Shown: piece by piece, positions 2,393 through 12,175 of the stretch
Layout of the letters: each line of letters opens with the position of its first letter
Numbering within the stretch: position 1 is the stretch's first letter
Origin: Chthoniobacterales bacterium
Lineage (GTDB): Bacteria > Verrucomicrobiota > Verrucomicrobiae > Chthoniobacterales > UBA10450
Length of the DNA: 13,096 nucleotides
Direction of reading: 5' to 3'
Assembly: GCA_003244125.1 (NCBI GenBank)
Contig: QHBL01000065.1
Coordinates: forward strand, 1 to 13,096
Translations under genes and position numbers: made by a program
Notes under the pieces: generated by a model
The model's database searches: none
What the model saw: only the letters and a program-made list of their open reading frames with translations
What the model was told of the DNA's origin: nothing

Positions 2393-2427
2393 GTTGCCCA
2401 ACCTAACCAAAACCAATGGAGAAACAC

Positions 2428-5400
2428 ATGAGTAGAGACGTATTCAGAGCCTTAGGATTTCGTCGCCTGGCGCTCGTCGCCAGCATCGCACTTCCGCTCT
2501 TTATGAGCTTTAGCGCGCGCGCTCAAATGGCCGCAGGTTCGCCTGCGTCGCGCACACCTGAACTCGGGCCCGGCCCGGCAGCGCCTCCGGCACCTCAAGC
2601 CGCTGGCGAAGCCAGCGCCGAACGCGTTGTCGTCACCGGATCAAACATCCCGACGGCGGAAGAAGTGACCGCGGCTCCCGTGGACACCCTCACGACACAA
2701 GAGGTCAACCGCTCCGGCAGCCAGGAAATTTTAACCGTGCTGCAAAAGCGTAACCCCGACTTCACTGGCGGCGGAAATCTCGGCACGTCGAACGCGAACA
2801 TCGCCTCGGGTTCAACCTTGGGCGGCACCATCATTGCCATTCGTGGCTTCCCCACCCTCGTTTTGTACGAGGGTCGTCGTGTTGCCGATTCCGCGGCTAT
2901 TTCAGTCGGCGGTTTTCAGTTCACCGACGTAGGGCTATTTCCTGCTGCTCTCATCAGCAGGATCGAAGTGCTGAAGGATGGCGCTTCGGCTATTTATGGA
3001 TCGGAAGCGGTTGGCGGCGTGGTCAACATCTTCACGAAAGATGACTTTCAGGGAGCTGAGCTTGGATTCCGCTATGGCACGACTTTGGAAGGCGCCGTAG
3101 CCGAACGCCGCGGGTACGTCATCGGCGGTGTCGGTAACGACACCACCCAGGTGACCGTGGGCATGCAGTATTACGAGATCGACCCGCTCTTTGAAAGACA
3201 GCGCAGCTACTCCAGCCCGACCATCAATGGAACAACCAACTACGCTGGCGCTGCGCGCGATCAAAACGGCCCGGACGGCTCGACCGGATTCTATCTGGCC
3301 ATTGGTGAAGATCCATTGCATTTCCCAGGGCCTATCATTGCGAACTCTCCCTTCAATGTGGGAGTGAAGCCTGGCTCAATCGCACCCGGAGGTGGTTTTG
3401 CGGCAATCCCGCAGTTTTATAGGTCCGCTACCTTTGGCGAGGTTTTGAGTTTCGACTTAGCGCAACGCCCGAACAATACCCTGGACACGTCGCGCACCAA
3501 CGTGATTGCGTCGGCTAGCCATCAGATTTTCGGCAAGCAATTGGAGATATTTGGCAATTTCCTCTATCAAAATTCCGATTACCAAAGCTTTCTCAACGCT
3601 CAACCACTCAACAACACCACCGGCGTGGTCATTCTGGGTTCGATGCGCGTTGACCCGAACGACCCGACCCATCTAATACCGGAAAATCGCGGAGCCCCTG
3701 CTCCGTTTAACCCATTCGTGGAGTCAATCGATGCGTTCTCGGCTTCGGGTCCGTTTAAACTGCAAATCGCTAACCGCTACAACGTCACCAACCCGCGAAT
3801 CTTTGACAATACCAACAACTTCTACCGCTTCCTCGGTGGTATTCGTTCGCAGATCACGCCTGATTGGACCTTCGAAACGGCTGCTTATTATAGCAAGTAC
3901 GACATCTCATTCGTAAACTCCAATCTGGTCAATGCGGAGGTATTAAACCAACGCATTGCAGGGGTAGACGCGAGCGGCAACAAGATCTCTCCGCTTGATT
4001 TCTTTGCCTTCAATCCCATCGGCACCGGCCCCGGGCAGCTCACCCGCGAAGAGTTTAACACTATTTTTGGTGCGAACTTCCGCTCGCTGAGCTCATTCCA
4101 GCGAGTTTTTGATGCCAAGCTTACCGGCTTCCCGTTTGAGCTCCCGGGGGGCAAGATCGGCGTATCAGTCGGCGCTGAATGGAGGCAGGAAGGATTCAAA
4201 GTCGCGGATTCACCCGAGATCTTCATCGGCTCGGTGCCCATCGGGAATATCTCGGTTAAGCGCGATATTTATTCCTTCTTCGGTGAGCTAAGCATTCCAA
4301 TCGTAGGCTCCTCGATGAAGGTTCCGGGGATTTACAGCCTGGAGTTGACTCTCGCGGGACGTTACGACCATTATGCGGGTATCAGTGAAGACGCGAAGGT
4401 TCCCAAGATCGAGTTCCGTTATCAGCCGATCAAGGACCTGACGCTGCGCGCTACTTATTCCAACTCGTTCATCGCTCCAACGCTCTTCCAAACCCAGGGG
4501 CCGACCGTTCAAGGCTTTTCGCCCGCCATCACTCTGGAGGGACAGGTGCAGGATCAGGCTCAGGTGCTCGGTGGATCGAATCCGAACTTGATACCCTCGA
4601 CCGCGGAAAGTTATACGGCAGGCTTTGTTTACAGCCCGAGCTATGTCCCCGGTTTGGTGATCTCGGTTGATTACTTCCGCACTCTCCAGCAGCAGATCGT
4701 AGGCACGCTTGGCGGTCAGCTTATTCTCTCGAGTGTGAACACCTTGGGGCCAGCTTCACCATATGCGAGCTTGGTCGCCTTCAACGCCTTCCCTGGGCAG
4801 ACGGGTGCTCGACCGGTCACTGGGCCACAACAGCTAATCGGCAACCTGGTTGCTGTGTTTTATATTGACAACCTGAGAAACCTCGGTGCGGCGCATGATG
4901 AGGGCCTGGACATGAGTGCGCATTACACCATCGACTTAAAGACATTCGGTCAGTTAGAGCTCGGAGCGAACGCCATCGTTTACACCGAATACGAAGCGAA
5001 GGTTTTGCCCACCGACAACTACTACAACCTCCTTGGGATAGACGGCGCTGAGGGCGTGGGAGTCCTTCCGCGCTATAAGCTGACCTTCTTGAGTGAGTAT
5101 CGCTGGCAGGGCTTTACAGCGTCGCTCGTCGCTAACTATATACCTAAGGTTTATAATGCGCTCGGCCGCGACCCTGTGAACGAGAACTACAGACGGTTCC
5201 AAAGTATCCAGGACTATGCGACCTTCGATGGTCGTATCTCATACACGTTTGTCCGGAACGAAATGCCCGGCGCCACCGTGCCCGAGCCGAAGGACTCCAA
5301 GAGTATGCGCGATGCCAAAAACGCCGCGCCTCCTCCAGTGGCTGGCTCGACCATGAGCATTATGGATAGGATGCTCAACGGGACGACACTGGCGGTGGGG

Positions 5401-5520
5401 TGTAACAACATTCTTGACCGGGACCCGTCCTTCGTCGATGGAGCGAACGGCAATACCGACCTCTCGGTCTACGATCCATACGGCCGCTTCCTCTACTTCG
5501 AAATTGCGAAGAAGTTTTAA
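2428..5520 (+). CDS. TonB-dependent outer-membrane receptor
   Basis: This is a large (1030 aa) outer-membrane active transporter powered by TonB-ExbBD; the ligand is unknown. A signal peptide spans residues 1-32 (basic start, hydrophobic core LALVASIALPLF, cleavage near SARAQ). A Pro/Ala-rich linker follows, then a TonB-box-like ERVVVTGSNIP at 65-75. The plug domain covers about 76-205 and includes EILTVLQKRNPDF, the IAIRGFPTLVLYEGRRV strand-loop and the hallmark DGASAIYGSEAVGGVVNI at 184-201. The rest alternates amphipathic strands of a beta barrel and ends in the terminal aromatic signature YFEIAKKF. No STN signalling domain is present. An ATG at 2416 is in frame, but GGAGA at 2418-2422 sits 5 nt before the ATG at 2428, so the later start is preferred. 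The gene stands alone, closed by a strong terminator, with no adjacent substrate-processing enzymes. An extended hydrophilic insert (about 950-975) lies near the C-terminus. Confidence 0.96.
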   Translation: MSRDVFRALGFRRLALVASIALPLFMSFSARAQMAAGSPASRTPELGPGPAAPPAPQAAGEASAERVVVTGSNIPTAEEVTAAPVDTLTTQEVNRSGSQEILTVLQKRNPDFTGGGNLGTSNANIASGSTLGGTIIAIRGFPTLVLYEGRRVADSAAISVGGFQFTDVGLFPAALISRIEVLKDGASAIYGSEAVGGVVNIFTKDDFQGAELGFRYGTTLEGAVAERRGYVIGGVGNDTTQVTVGMQYYEIDPLFERQRSYSSPTINGTTNYAGAARDQNGPDGSTGFYLAIGEDPLHFPGPIIANSPFNVGVKPGSIAPGGGFAAIPQFYRSATFGEVLSFDLAQRPNNTLDTSRTNVIASASHQIFGKQLEIFGNFLYQNSDYQSFLNAQPLNNTTGVVILGSMRVDPNDPTHLIPENRGAPAPFNPFVESIDAFSASGPFKLQIANRYNVTNPRIFDNTNNFYRFLGGIRSQITPDWTFETAAYYSKYDISFVNSNLVNAEVLNQRIAGVDASGNKISPLDFFAFNPIGTGPGQLTREEFNTIFGANFRSLSSFQRVFDAKLTGFPFELPGGKIGVSVGAEWRQEGFKVADSPEIFIGSVPIGNISVKRDIYSFFGELSIPIVGSSMKVPGIYSLELTLAGRYDHYAGISEDAKVPKIEFRYQPIKDLTLRATYSNSFIAPTLFQTQGPTVQGFSPAITLEGQVQDQAQVLGGSNPNLIPSTAESYTAGFVYSPSYVPGLVISVDYFRTLQQQIVGTLGGQLILSSVNTLGPASPYASLVAFNAFPGQTGARPVTGPQQLIGNLVAVFYIDNLRNLGAAHDEGLDMSAHYTIDLKTFGQLELGANAIVYTEYEAKVLPTDNYYNLLGIDGAEGVGVLPRYKLTFLSEYRWQGFTASLVANYIPKVYNALGRDPVNENYRRFQSIQDYATFDGRISYTFVRNEMPGATVPEPKDSKSMRDAKNAAPPPVAGSTMSIMDRMLNGTTLAVGCNNILDRDPSFVDGANGNTDLSVYDPYGRFLYFEIAKKF

Positions 5521-5794: not shown

Positions 5795-6280
5795 ATGAAC
5801 AAGATAAGCATTGCCGTTATTTTCACTTTCATCGCAATACATCTTTCCTTCGCCGCGGACCGCTCTTTCCCGGGCTTGAAGAGCGTGATGGATCCGGAAA
5901 CGTACGCTCGTACCGGGTTGCCAGGTCTTTCACCCGAGCAGCGCGCCGAGCTGGACGCATTCATTCGCGATTATGTCGCCGGCAAACAGAAAGAGGCCGC
6001 TGACGTAGCCGCGACGCAGGCGGTTGATCGTGCTGTCAAAGAGCGGAAAGTGCGGGCGCCGGAAATCATCGAAAGCACGATCGTGGGAACGTATACCGGT
6101 TATGGCCCGCGCACAGTCTTCCACCTGGCCAATGGACAAACATGGAAACCGACCAGTGGCGACGTCTTTTACCATTCTGCGGTAAACAATCCCCGTGTTG
6201 TCATCTACCGGCAGGATATCTTCGGCTACAAAATGTTCGTGGAAAACGCCGGCGTGATCCGCGTCAAGAAAGCGGACTAA
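5795..6280 (+). CDS. Small exported protein of unknown function with a C-terminal NGQ-W module
   Basis: The 161-aa product starts with a clear signal peptide (MNKISIAVIFTFIAIHLSFA, cleavage near residue 20-21). An ATG here is preferred over upstream in-frame codons because the signal peptide begins exactly at it and GAGGG lies just before it. The mature protein has a segment with the pattern DPETYARTGLPGLSPEQ then AELDAFIRDYVAG (about 33-63), and a short helical linker. A beta-rich C-terminal part (about 92-158) contains IVGTYTGYGPRTVFHLANGQ at 96-115 with Trp117, and ends VIRVKKAD. From memory this matches uncharacterised exported proteins, common in proteobacteria, that pair a T/DP.ey...GL.kLSpeql motif with an F.L.NGQvW domain. 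Function is unknown. It follows the receptor by 274 bp beyond its terminator, so it is probably transcribed separately. Confidence 0.85.
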   Translation: MNKISIAVIFTFIAIHLSFAADRSFPGLKSVMDPETYARTGLPGLSPEQRAELDAFIRDYVAGKQKEAADVAATQAVDRAVKERKVRAPEIIESTIVGTYTGYGPRTVFHLANGQTWKPTSGDVFYHSAVNNPRVVIYRQDIFGYKMFVENAGVIRVKKAD

Positions 6281-9139: not shown

Positions 9140-9832
9140 GTGAAGATCTCCGTCGTTATACCTTGCTACAACGAGCGCGCAACGATCGGACAAGTCCTCC
9201 GCGCCGTCCGCGCGACGCAAGGGCACGAACTTGAGGTCATCGTCGTGGACGATGGCTCGACCGACGGGACAACAATGATGCTGAAGGAGACAGGCGCGCC
9301 GCTGGCAGACCGCATTGTGTATCATGAGACAAATCGCGGCAAAGGTGCGGCGTTGCGCTCCGGCTTTGCAGCGGCGAGCGGGGACGTCATCATTATCCAG
9401 GACGCAGACCTGGAGTACGATCCGGCCGAGTATCCGACACTCGTCGCGCCGATCCTGAACGGCAAAGCGGACGCAGTTTACGGCTCCCGTTTCATGGGCG
9501 GGCAAAGCCATCGCGTCGTCTATTTCTGGCACATGCTCGGAAACAAATTCCTTACGCTCTTTTCAAACATGTGCACGAATCTGAACCTCACGGACATGGA
9601 GGTCGGCTTTAAAGCGTTGCGCGCCGAGGTCATCAAAACGATGGACCTGAAAGAAGACGGCTTCGGCTTCGAGCCGGAGATAACCGCGCGCCTGGCGAAA
9701 GCGCGTTATCGCATCTACGAAGTCGGCATTTCGTATTCCGGACGGACCTACGAGGAAGGCAAGAAGGTAACGTGGGAGGATGGAATTCGCGCGTTATACG
9801 CGATCGTGCGCTATAATTTCTTCACGAACTGA
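9140..9832 (+). CDS. Family 2 glycosyltransferase, dolichol/polyprenyl-phosphate mannose synthase-like
   Basis: This 230-aa cytosolic or membrane-associated GT-A enzyme probably transfers a sugar from a nucleotide donor to a polyprenyl phosphate. The start is GTG (9140), which opens the canonical [17 protein letters not shown]. Motifs in order are [10 protein letters not shown] (35-44), [12 protein letters not shown] (65-76), the metal-binding QDADLEYDP (87-95), YGSRFMGG (114-121), TDMEVGFKA (151-159) and [13 protein letters not shown] (175-187, acceptor/base region). The length fits the short DPM1-like class without a C-terminal membrane domain. The C-terminal [20 protein letters not shown] is also typical of this class. 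Exact sugar (mannose, glucose or other) cannot be read from sequence. Divergent orientation with the TPR glycosyltransferase at 6937-9006 supports a donor-maker plus transferase pair. No clear ribosome-binding site precedes the GTG. Confidence 0.92.
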
Positions 9833-9872
9833 AATCAGCTCGTCAGTGGCATGGGACGTTCGCCAGCCATTA

Positions 9873-9908
9873 CGCCAAAAACCAGACCAGTTGCGCCAAA
9901 ACGCCAAG
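9873..9908 (+). repeat. CGCCAAAA direct repeats upstream of the first miniprotein gene
   Basis: CGCCAAAA occurs at 9873-9880 and 9894-9901, start to start 21 nt (two helical turns). A third partial copy, CGCCAAG, is at 9902-9908. They lie upstream of the -35-like TTGTCA at 9926-9931, a position suited to an activator site. Role inferred from spacing only. Confidence 0.35.
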
Positions 9909-9925
9909 CCAACTGTAGAATGATC

Positions 9926-9931
9926 TTGTCA
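9926..9931 (+). promoter_or_regulatory. Candidate -35 element of the first miniprotein gene
   Basis: TTGTCA sits in TCTTGTCAAGGT, nearly identical to the TCTTGTCAGGGT stretch upstream of the TonB-dependent receptor (2362-2373). No convincing -10 hexamer is seen at the usual spacing, so the assignment is weak. Confidence 0.25.
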
Positions 9932-9960
9932 AGGTCAATATCGAGTGGGAATGTTGAAGC

Positions 9961-10296
9961 ATGAAAACTACACCGTTGGTTTTGAAATGTGTCGCCGTAT
10001 CGGTTGGCATAGGCTTGCTTTCGGCTCCCGGGCTGAAGGCAAATACCAACACGGCTGATCAATCGAAGAACATGCCGAATGTGCGGGTGCAACAAGGCAT
10101 CCCAGCAGAACGCGTCGTCTTGGTTCAAACAACCGAGAGCCGCATTCCTAAGCGTGTCGTGATTGCGGGTAATCAGGTCAATGGCGCATCGGCCATGTAT
10201 GTGCTGCAGAGTCGTGATCTGCTGCGCACGGGGGCGACAGATGTCGCCGGCATGTTAAGAAACGATCCGAGCATTTCCTCCTCAAACCGGCACTAA
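9961..10296 (+). CDS. Exported 111-aa TonB-box/plug-start miniprotein (first of tandem pair)
   Basis: Function unknown. The signal peptide covers about residues 1-27 (MKTTPLVLK, then VAVSVGIGLLSAPGLKA). The mature 84 residues begin with a polar segment, then AERVVLVQTTESRIPKRVVIAG, and then MYVLQSRDLLRTGATDVAGM with LRNDPS following. That last stretch is very like the first strand and helix of TonB-receptor plug domains (the receptor here has VDTLTTQEVNRSGSQEILTV at the same place, then LQKRNPDF). The chain stops at SSSNRH; no plug remainder, no barrel, no extra membrane segment. After its stop, no frame continues the receptor pattern, which argues against a simple frameshift. It pairs with the 10397-10699 gene: from the S-x-IP motif both run 52 residues to a shared RH terminus, with common S.IP, D, G, G.L and DPS positions. 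It should act in the periplasm or be secreted. Confidence 0.75.
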   Translation: MKTTPLVLKCVAVSVGIGLLSAPGLKANTNTADQSKNMPNVRVQQGIPAERVVLVQTTESRIPKRVVIAGNQVNGASAMYVLQSRDLLRTGATDVAGMLRNDPSISSSNRH

Positions 10297-10338
10297 GTAG
10301 ACCGGTCACGGGGAGTGCGATTCGGCAGGCAGCACTTC

Positions 10339-10372
10339 GCCAGCGCAACGGGGTTGGACCGCTTGCGCTGGC
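10339..10372 (+). terminator. Strong hairpin between the tandem miniprotein genes
   Basis: A perfect 10-bp stem (GCCAGCGCAA at 10339-10348, complement at 10363-10372) encloses a 14-nt loop that can add three more pairs. It begins 43 nt after the first miniprotein stop and ends 24 nt before the next start. There is no T-tract, so it may be a Rho-type or processing/stability element rather than an intrinsic terminator. Confidence 0.5.
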
Positions 10373-10390
10373 TGGGAGTTAGCATAGATT
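10363..10390 (+). promoter_or_regulatory. Possible promoter placing the second miniprotein on a leaderless transcript
   Basis: TTGCGC (10363-10368) and TAGATT (10385-10390) are separated by 16 bp. The -10-like box ends six nt before the ATG at 10397, so transcription would begin at or next to the start codon. This would explain the lack of any ribosome-binding site. The -35-like box overlaps the right arm of the hairpin at 10339-10372. The hexamer matches are modest. Confidence 0.3.
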
Positions 10391-10396
10391 ATTTGC

Positions 10397-10699
10397 ATGA
10401 AAACAGGGTTTCTTCTTCAGGGTACAGCACTGCTGCTGCTGGTCGTTGGGACGACAGCAAGCGCGCAGACGAATGAGCGTCAGACAAATGCGGTTAAAGC
10501 GGACGATCAGTATGTCGAGCAGTACGTGGTTGTGACTGGCTCCAATATCCCGCGAAAGGTGAAAGTCCGCCGGTGGGGAACAAACACTCCGTATAATGTG
10601 GCGATCTACGGCCAGCACGATATAAAAGTTAGCGGCCGGGCGACGACGGAAGGAGCGCTGCAAACGCTCGACCCGTCAGTCTCTGTTCGCCGGCACTAA
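10397..10699 (+). CDS. Exported 100-aa TonB-box/plug-start miniprotein (second of tandem pair)
   Basis: Function unknown. The signal peptide is clear: MKTGFLLQGTALLLLVVGTT with cleavage near ASA-Q (residue 23). The mature part has a polar stretch, then EQYVVVTGSNIP, almost identical to ERVVVTGSNIP at the TonB-box/plug start of the receptor at 2428-5520. A basic segment RKVKVRRWG follows, then NVAIYGQHDIKVSGRATTEG and ALQTLDPS, resembling the first plug strand and helix. It ends SVRRH, like the SSNRH end of the gene at 9961. There is no barrel or other domain. No ribosome-binding site is visible before the ATG. A good intrinsic terminator follows 21 nt after the stop, so the gene looks complete and self-contained rather than the head of a broken receptor. 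Confidence 0.78.
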   Translation: MKTGFLLQGTALLLLVVGTTASAQTNERQTNAVKADDQYVEQYVVVTGSNIPRKVKVRRWGTNTPYNVAIYGQHDIKVSGRATTEGALQTLDPSVSVRRH

Positions 10700-10719
10700 A
10701 TCGGAGGAAGGGCATCCGT

Positions 10720-10743
10720 GGCGTGATTTCACGCCCGCTTTTT
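10720..10743 (+). terminator. Rho-independent terminator after the second miniprotein gene
   Basis: The stem GGCGTG (10720-10725) / CACGCC (10730-10735) has an ATTT loop, then CGC and a run of five T (10739-10743). It lies 21 nt downstream of the stop codon. Confidence 0.8.
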
Positions 10744-11593
10744 CGCTGACGGCTGGCGTTCGCCTTGCCTGGGGTAGCTGGACTTGGCCGTTGAGCGGAT
10801 GGAGAGAGAATTTGTAACTAACAGTCGCTAGCCCAACTCGGCGGCACGCCGGTGGGATAGAGTTTCGCCGGTCTCCGCCTCGACTAAGCCAAAGCCGCTG
10901 CTATTTACAAAGCGCCGCGTCGGCAATTTCTGCTCTGTCATCCGGAGCGGGTGCGAGGGGACCTCTCATCGTTTACAGGTCACCCAATTGCGCGTGACAA
11001 TTCGAGCCTCCTGAGAGGTTCTTCGCCGTTTGCGCGGCTCCGGATGACACGGCGCTGAGTCACGCCACCACTGCTACCACGCGTGTTTGCGCTGCGTCGC
11101 GTCTGGAATGCGCACATGGTGTAATGCTGGCAGGGAGGGATTTGTTATTCAAGCGATGCTGTACGCTTGGCGGTGCTCGCGCCGGTGAGGGCTTCCGACG
11201 TGCGACGGCTGACGCTCGATACGCGCGGGCTGCGAGGTGGTGGAAAGTGCGAGGTGTGATCGGATGCGATGCGTAGTGTCGTCTCCCGCTCAGGTAAGGT
11301 TAGGCAGAACGTTGATCCTTCATCAGATGCCGGGACGTGTTATCCTGGGGGAACATTTGAGTTTCGTTGCGCAGATCGGTTGTCCTGCTAACCGACGGGT
11401 GAACTCTCGCACGATTCGCTCCAGCCGCTGGCGGGAGGCGGCCACGCCGGCGCTGGGATAGTTCGCGGCTCAAACCGAACGAGAAAGCGCGAATGCTCCG
11501 CGGTCGAGCGCTCGCGGGTCGAAAGCTGGGAATGCTAAGCCCCAGCTGCCGGCCGGAGCGCTGGCATAATGATTGCTTATAACCATAGTAATT
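10744..11593. other. Long intergenic region with a palindromic repeat and no supported gene
   Basis: No coding frame here shows a signal peptide, family motif or ribosome-binding site. The only plus frame of note (11237-11461) has no protein-like features, and a long minus frame entering from the right is the shadow of the peptidase gene. The region holds the 114-bp palindromic repeat at 10936-11049, and a short hairpin at 11524-11547 (AGCTGGG / CCCAGCT, 10-nt loop) about 50 nt before the next gene. I see nothing else defined between 11050 and 11520. Confidence 0.6.
10936..11049. repeat. 114-bp palindromic repeat with TGTCATCCGGAGC ends
   Basis: Exact 13-nt inverted ends, TGTCATCCGGAGC (10936-10948) and GCTCCGGATGACA (11037-11049), bound the element. 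Inside, ACCTCTCA (10961-10968) and TGAGAGGT (11012-11019) form a second complementary pair. It has the look of a REP/MITE-like dispersed intergenic element. TGTCATCC-GAGC...GACCTC strings recur in Acidobacteria and other soil bacteria, from memory. It carries no gene and no obvious target-site duplication. Confidence 0.75.
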
Positions 11594-11599
11594 ATGGTT
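11581..11599. promoter_or_regulatory. Hairpin overlapping the probable peptidase start codon
   Basis: AACCATA (11581-11587) and TATGGTT (11593-11599) are perfect complements around GTAAT. The right arm contains the ATG at 11594-11596. If that ATG is used, the structure would bury the start codon, a possible translational control or operator site. Confidence 0.35.
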
Positions 11600-12175
11600 T
11601 TTATCAGCCTGACGCCTTTTCTCTCCCGGCGAATGCTCGCGGTGCTCTTCGCCATTCTTGCACTTTCCGCCATCAGCTGTTTTGCCGACTCCAACTTGTT
11701 CACGGTGGCAGCTACGCCATACGACCATCAGATGGCGCGGGTCAAGCCGGTGCTCACAGTCGCCCCTGCCAGGGAAACGGAGACTGTGTCGCTTGACGCG
11801 GTGAACCGGTGGATGACCGATTTGCGCGGCATCCCTTACGGTTATTCGATGCAATGGCGCACACCGACCGAAGTCGCGCATGATCCCATGGCCGATTGCA
11901 AGGGCAAGGCCGTAGCGCTTTACGAGCGGATGCGCGCCCACGGAGCGCGGAACATCCGCCTGGTCATCGGGAAACGCGCGCCGAGCAGCCGCGTCACGCA
12001 TGCCTGGGTCGAGTGGACCGAAGATTCACAAACTTACGTTCTTGATCCGACTTTCAATCGCAACGCCTGTGCGGCGGCCGAAATCCCGAGCAAGTCCTAC
12101 GTGCCCTACTACGCGTTTGCCGGGACGAGGAAGTTCCGCGCGGCGTCGGTGGGCGATCTTTACGCGAAATTGTAA
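11594..12175 (+). CDS. Exported transglutaminase-like cysteine peptidase
   Basis: The predicted protein has 193 aa if the ATG at 11594 is the start, giving a basic-hydrophobic export signal (LSRRMLAVLFAILALSAISC, cleavage near FAD). An upstream TTG at 11573 and a downstream ATG at 11633 are alternatives, none with a good ribosome-binding site. The 11633 start would lose the RR pair. The mature domain has the cysteine-peptidase/transglutaminase triad in order: Cys in MADCKGKAVALYERM (about residue 102), His in VTHAWVEW (about 136) and Asp in YVLDPTFN (about 151). This is the arrangement of bacterial transglutaminase-like cysteine proteases (BTLCP), some of which cleave periplasmic adhesin or cyclase-system proteins. 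No LapD/LapA-like partner is present in the window, so the substrate is unknown. It appears to be a stand-alone gene. Confidence 0.85.
   Translation: MVFISLTPFLSRRMLAVLFAILALSAISCFADSNLFTVAATPYDHQMARVKPVLTVAPARETETVSLDAVNRWMTDLRGIPYGYSMQWRTPTEVAHDPMADCKGKAVALYERMRAHGARNIRLVIGKRAPSSRVTHAWVEWTEDSQTYVLDPTFNRNACAAAEIPSKSYVPYYAFAGTRKFRAASVGDLYAKL

Follow-up and report, generated by a model that had tools for sequence, protein, structure and literature searches.

Paired miniproteins resembling the start of TonB-dependent receptors form a conserved family with a possible role in competition for TonB

Two adjacent short genes, each of which stops after what looks like the first part of a TonB-dependent receptor, raise the question whether such pieces are debris of broken receptors or proteins in their own right, and what they could do in the periplasm. 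The pair, miniproteins A and B, lies in a window of 13,096 bases (the whole stretch of DNA that was analysed). It is an open question how a limited number of TonB complexes serves many receptors, and to our knowledge no layer of outer-membrane transport control like paired barrel-less plug pieces has been described. If the reading developed below is true, a conserved natural protein with a TonB box and no barrel would offer a handle on TonB sharing, and structural work would gain a small natural ligand with which to trap TonB or half-pulled plugs.

The tandem genes and their family

The gene for miniprotein A occupies 9961..10296 on the + strand (111 aa) and is followed in tandem, after a gap of 100 bases, by that for miniprotein B at 10397..10699 on the same strand (100 aa). 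Both ORFs were found with the position and length given in the preliminary description. The signal peptides reported for them were recognised by eye, in residues ~1-27 of A (n-region, hydrophobic stretch, then Leu-Lys-Ala) and ~1-23 of B (the same order, then Ala-Ser-Ala), and would predict export only as far as the periplasm. In A, a variable linker precedes a TonB-box-like stretch with S-R-I-P (residues ~50-63), and a strand-helix (residues ~78-106) comes after a family-specific insert and leads into a basic end. In B, the linker is followed by VVVTGSNIP (residues 44-52), a basic insert, the strand-helix (residues ~67-95) and an Arg-Arg-His end. TTES replaces VTGS in the box of A.

Most of the likeness first noted between the two proteins held on re-examination. 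From S-x-IP to the stop both measure 52 residues, both terminate in Arg-His, and both contain DPS with a shift of one residue. The 11 ungapped identities that had been claimed became 12 on recounting, three of them (S, I and P) within the anchor. Outside the four-residue anchor there are 9 identities against 3.3 expected, a number reached by 0.42% of 20,000 shuffles; since the anchor was picked by eye, the pair by itself is modest evidence.

Relatives were sought among about 5.8 billion proteins, the search covering only intact ORFs whose length was 0.55-1.75 times that of the query, a range in which much longer relatives are invisible. A has 24 relatives (67-81% identity, worst E 2.2e-32) and B has 21 (58-78% identity). 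A joint profile added nine more distant proteins, the outlier group C, from among the best 7,996 candidates by shared words. The family thus comprises 56 proteins (25 A, 22 B and 9 C), the two of the window included. In every one of them the distance from the anchor S-x-I-P/T to the stop is 50-56 residues: 52 in 31 proteins, 51 in nine, 50 in seven, 53 in six and 56 in three. Arg or His occurs within the last four positions in 56/56, with an exact end that varies. Three A proteins and some B proteins have predicted N-terminal extensions. Those relatives to which a source gives a name are all called "hypothetical protein" and none carries a precomputed Pfam domain, which makes the family a target for annotation. 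With 56 members and a nearly fixed stop position, the earlier proposal of a dedicated family of stand-alone receptor starts is borne out and appears very likely to be right. A and B are real genes of a conserved family, and no such family was found described in titles and abstract starts of the open-licence literature among the matches listed.

Mean conservation is higher in the box region and the strand-helix than in the linkers, with 0.90 and 0.82 against 0.75 in A and 0.92 and 0.88 against 0.64 in B. The signal region of A, at 0.87, is conserved about as well as its box and strand-helix, and its tail, at 0.50, is not. The groups were then compared as profiles trimmed to start 14 residues before the anchor, that is, without the signal peptides. 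A and B aligned in hhalign at 96.6% (E 5e-10, score 49.9, against 21.0 for the best of 60 column shuffles and 7.4 for the reversed profile), A and C at 99.94% (score 174.1, top of 60 shuffles 21.2), and B and C at 98.8% (score 80.4, top of 60 shuffles 16.3). With signal peptides retained, the A-B value was 96.9%. The strength of these matches settles the shared architecture of A and B beyond the pair in the window. Six residues inserted after the anchor are also common to all groups and absent from 13 receptors, and within the scope of these 13 this suggests a single origin and later spread over repeated truncation.

A and B probably form a pair. Eleven of the 25 A proteins and 11 of the 22 B proteins, the window's included, are on contigs of identical length, against a mean of 0.12 and a maximum of 3 in a control with jittered lengths. 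The pairing rests on equal lengths of contigs, not on contig names, and identical lengths for 11 pairs make a shared contig very probable. Over these 11 pairs the distance matrices of A and B are correlated (Mantel r 0.74, p 0.001).

Searches of other collections gave no further members. On plasmids, two tblastn queries, a C protein and a B protein, found no match at E up to 1; on viral contigs 28 stretches were picked up with the B profile and none was confirmed; on genome contigs 154 pattern stretches with A and 19 with the B profile were likewise left with none confirmed. The outlying branches of the family are P0048-P0056; the contigs that carry P0050 and P0054 measure up to 118 and 308 kb. 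A common and different mature start (GTVYAGKYRVVKDG or close) is seen in P0053-P0056, so that a further subfamily seems to exist.

Likeness to TonB-dependent receptor starts

The N-terminus of TonB-dependent receptors (PF07715 Plug, PF00593 barrel) has a TonB-box-like strand and then a strand-helix, in the same order as the miniproteins and with equal spacing except for the six-residue insert of the latter. T-G-S-x-I is common to receptors, B and part of C, while A is without TGS; the triplet stands before the anchor in 22/22 B, 5/9 C and 1/25 A proteins. Unlike receptors, the miniproteins are without the remaining plug or barrel, and each is encoded by a gene of its own, with its own stop and signal peptide. 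The window itself encodes a full-length receptor outside the tandem pair (2416..5520, + strand, 1034 aa; Pfam Plug E 9e-15, barrel E 9.3e-26), which carries VVVTGSNIP, identical to the motif of B.

Plug similarity in a profile comparison had been fixed beforehand as a test, and it was present. Against a profile of 13 receptor N-termini (that of the window and 12 chosen from plasmids), B gave 93.7%, C 91.2%, A 16.4%, A with C 81.6% and all 56 proteins 92.9%, scores that 0/60 column shuffles reached in every group. Against near full-length receptors (941 columns) the best matches fell within columns 71-116, which hold the TonB box and the first plug strand-helix, with 90.7% for B, 82.8% for C and 87.7% for all; A matched columns 82-114 at only 3.9%. 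When the anchor and everything before it were removed on both sides, A retained 33.9%, B 54.1%, C 54.5% and the whole family 76.4%, and 0/100 shuffles reached the score in any group. The match thus persists without the box, and both box and strand-helix contribute to the similarity.

In a six-frame search of the window with the receptor profile, the top hit was the receptor, followed by B (E 0.00045) and then A (E 0.039). The reverse search found the window receptor weakly, with E 0.014 for the C profile, 0.02 for all, 0.087 for B and 0.55 for A; the A profile preferred a minus-strand frame (E 0.0089) to that receptor. In a comparison with the single receptor of the window, the B profile gave 49% and the A profile 0.2%. 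The motifs of a receptor N-terminus that had been read into both genes are therefore clear in B and C, by profile and by shuffled and reversed controls, and weak in A taken alone. At the level of sequence, B and C give good support to the receptor-start reading, and A is linked to receptors only through C, which it matches strongly.

A matched Pfam Plug at E 0.021 (15.8 bits against a cut-off of 23.9) over profile positions 6-38 of 107, B had no match in Pfam up to E 1, and a complete plug domain over the Pfam cut-off is absent from both. Weak Plug matches across the family number 1/25 in A, 1/22 in B and 2/18 in alignment A4. In NCBIfam a TonB receptor model matched 1/18 proteins (E 0.0037), and five other models had a single matching protein apiece (E 0.02 or worse). 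Some further Pfam matches were judged to be chance. These are DUF6541, which in A scored slightly better than Plug (E 0.0082, also below cut-off; 5/25 A proteins, best E 0.0012) with a match that begins within the putative signal peptide, at residue 8; SPOC_AIPP2 (4/25 A proteins); and FliO (2/18 in A4, best E 0.0053).

No PDB chain was found at E up to 10 with alignments A1 (A) and A2 (B), and A4 gave two unrelated weak matches (E 0.28 and 0.97). The latter, the antifreeze protein 6eio, has a TGAT-containing stretch in common and was also judged to be chance; no ice-binding family was among the Pfam families listed. AlphaFold models built from shallow alignments have no confident fold (mean pLDDT 49.6 for A and 46.3 for B). 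Such low-confidence models agree with a piece that may be disordered until it pairs with a partner, without proving disorder. The isolated FepA plug behaved as unfolded, as summarised in an excerpted review (PMC11658791).

Possible roles and rival explanations

The best explanation of the whole, which we hold tentatively, is an exported family of receptor-start miniproteins that would compete for TonB. A and B would be exported as a TonB-box-like strand and the first plug strand-helix, then a stop, and the free miniproteins would compete with receptors for TonB, with a plug-like strand-helix that may add affinity or selectivity. By our estimate they would correspond to the box and the first part of the weak plug half which TonB grips and pulls. 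Binding to TonB, and with it the role of competitor, is possible.

Some precedents bear on such a role. In BtuB, TonB opens the channel by pulling out the mechanically weak half of the plug, which is made up of about 50 residues that follow the Ton box (excerpt of PMC5413942). A soluble plug of FpvAI gives partial complementation of a plugless barrel, and in the excerpted text the authors regard competition for TonB1 as the likely explanation of the lower efficiency (PMC10994204). This plug is, like the miniproteins, a periplasmic plug piece without a barrel; it is an engineered whole plug that contains much more of the plug, whereas the miniproteins are natural genes. Ferredoxin, a substrate, takes the place of its receptor on the TonB homologue FusB (PMC13253070, in part), and a title of 1992 has a TonB-box pentapeptide inhibiting in vivo. 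By analogy with BtuB, FpvAI and FusB, free miniproteins could compete for TonB. A natural two-component periplasmic brake or switch, in which paired and diversified barrel-less plug pieces ration the shared TonB motor over many receptors or reseal receptors after every pull, is possible but less likely than not.

TonB-dependent colicins and pyocins are also non-receptor proteins with a TonB box (excerpts of PMC11658791 and PMC10994204). Unlike these bacteriocins, the miniproteins (100-111 aa) have no toxin domain that could be found and little room for one. Pfam gave no further domain in A or B, and no immunity gene was recognised beside the pair; a small toxin of a new type would be possible.

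The main rival to TonB competition is an action of the miniproteins on the receptors instead of on TonB. In the periplasm they would fill the space left by the pulled weak plug half or hold the plug, and in this way reseal, jam or help to assemble particular receptors. The piece that aligns is the plug start, the part that leaves the BtuB barrel (PMC5413942, excerpt), a soluble plug is able to act in trans, and yet the non-labile plug half alone restored no function (both in the excerpt of PMC10994204). Llp of phage T5 binds the FhuA plug from the periplasm and jams FhuA (PMC9586334, in part). Conservation of the strand-helix past the box is also poorly explained by TonB binding alone; however, no receptor was recognised directly adjoining the A-B pair in the window, and an action on receptors is on the whole unlikely. 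That neither a receptor nor a TonB gene was recognised there also speaks against TonB competition.

Beside Llp there is Cor, a phage exclusion lipoprotein. A lipidated cysteine at the mature N-terminus is absent from 56/56 family proteins, none of which has a Cys anywhere between the position 30 residues upstream of the anchor and the C-terminus, and the Cys of A (residue 10) is inside the putative signal peptide. Llp, as a small periplasmic protein acting on a TonB-dependent receptor (excerpt of PMC9586334), is a model for possible miniprotein action. It differs from the miniproteins in being a lipoprotein, and they resemble the receptor itself.

It is likewise improbable that the receptor similarity reflects distant descent only and that the proteins now serve some other purpose in the periplasm, such as that of partner proteins in the envelope or in regulation, with A and B binding each other. 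Such a purpose would fit the 11 probable same-contig pairs with their correlated distances, the basic ends, the insert missing in 13 receptors and the far drift of A from receptors. The positions conserved in B and C are, however, receptor positions, with TGS retained in 22/22 B and 5/9 C proteins.

That A and B are truncated remnants, 5' ends left after a deletion and kept by chance, is very improbable: their sequences do look like a receptor start, a full receptor lies 4.4 kb away in the window and their third-position GC (0.60) is below that of six other measured genes (0.65-0.75), but the stop position is near-identical in 56 proteins across several branches, within the range of intact ORF lengths that the search covered, the miniproteins have the insert in common together with a probable A-B pairing, and A and B are merely 100 bases apart. 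A decaying barrel downstream, named at the outset as the result that would speak for remnants, was not detected in the window: 9833-11600 has no significant match to a beta-barrel, and A and B end at 111 and 100 aa. When this stretch was compared with the window receptor, the best match was B's own box (E 0.15) and the next had E 5.1, and with 12 other receptors the best E was only 0.11, on the minus strand. The pair is probably not a broken receptor. Among the roles suggested, that of a secreted signal is the least supported.

Surroundings of the pair in the window

The window would fit a soil member of the Verrucomicrobiota. A family 2 glycosyltransferase gene (9140-9832, + strand) is the upstream neighbour of A. 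Downstream of B, about 870 bases (10700-11570) are without a convincing gene, and the next neighbour is an ORF of 200 aa (11573-12175, + strand) that is weakly transglutaminase-like (E 0.016 and 0.022, below cut-off). GC by codon position is 0.56, 0.46 and 0.60 in A and 0.62, 0.44 and 0.60 in B; the second-position value is low, as in the six other genes measured, and the downstream stretch differs (0.59, 0.60, 0.64). Antisense ORFs at 9835-10128 and 10379-10663 were rejected, as no support for them was seen and both sense genes have families. Shortly 3' of the full-length receptor, a small apparently exported ORF was seen (5795-6280, 161 aa from an internal ATG), which has no Pfam family over the cut-off.

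Just 3' of B on the + strand, a hairpin of 6 pairs with a T-rich tail (10720-10745) is possibly an intrinsic terminator closing the A-B unit. Terminator-like sites are as common in shuffled sequence (3 observed, mean 3.3 in shuffles), so this reading is based on position only. The hairpin is contained in the first arm of an imperfect inverted repeat of 18 bases (10718-10735 / 11051-11068, 78% complementary). Rfam gave no match over the window.

The predicted N-terminal extensions of P0007, P0010 and P0020 show, by eye, N-V-L-V-N-A-N-F shortly before the Met. In the window, the DNA upstream of A (9910-9960) has N-x-L-V-x-x-N in frame and at equal distance, despite a stop at 9955-9957. This hints at the conservation of a non-coding leader or promoter and not of a coding sequence.
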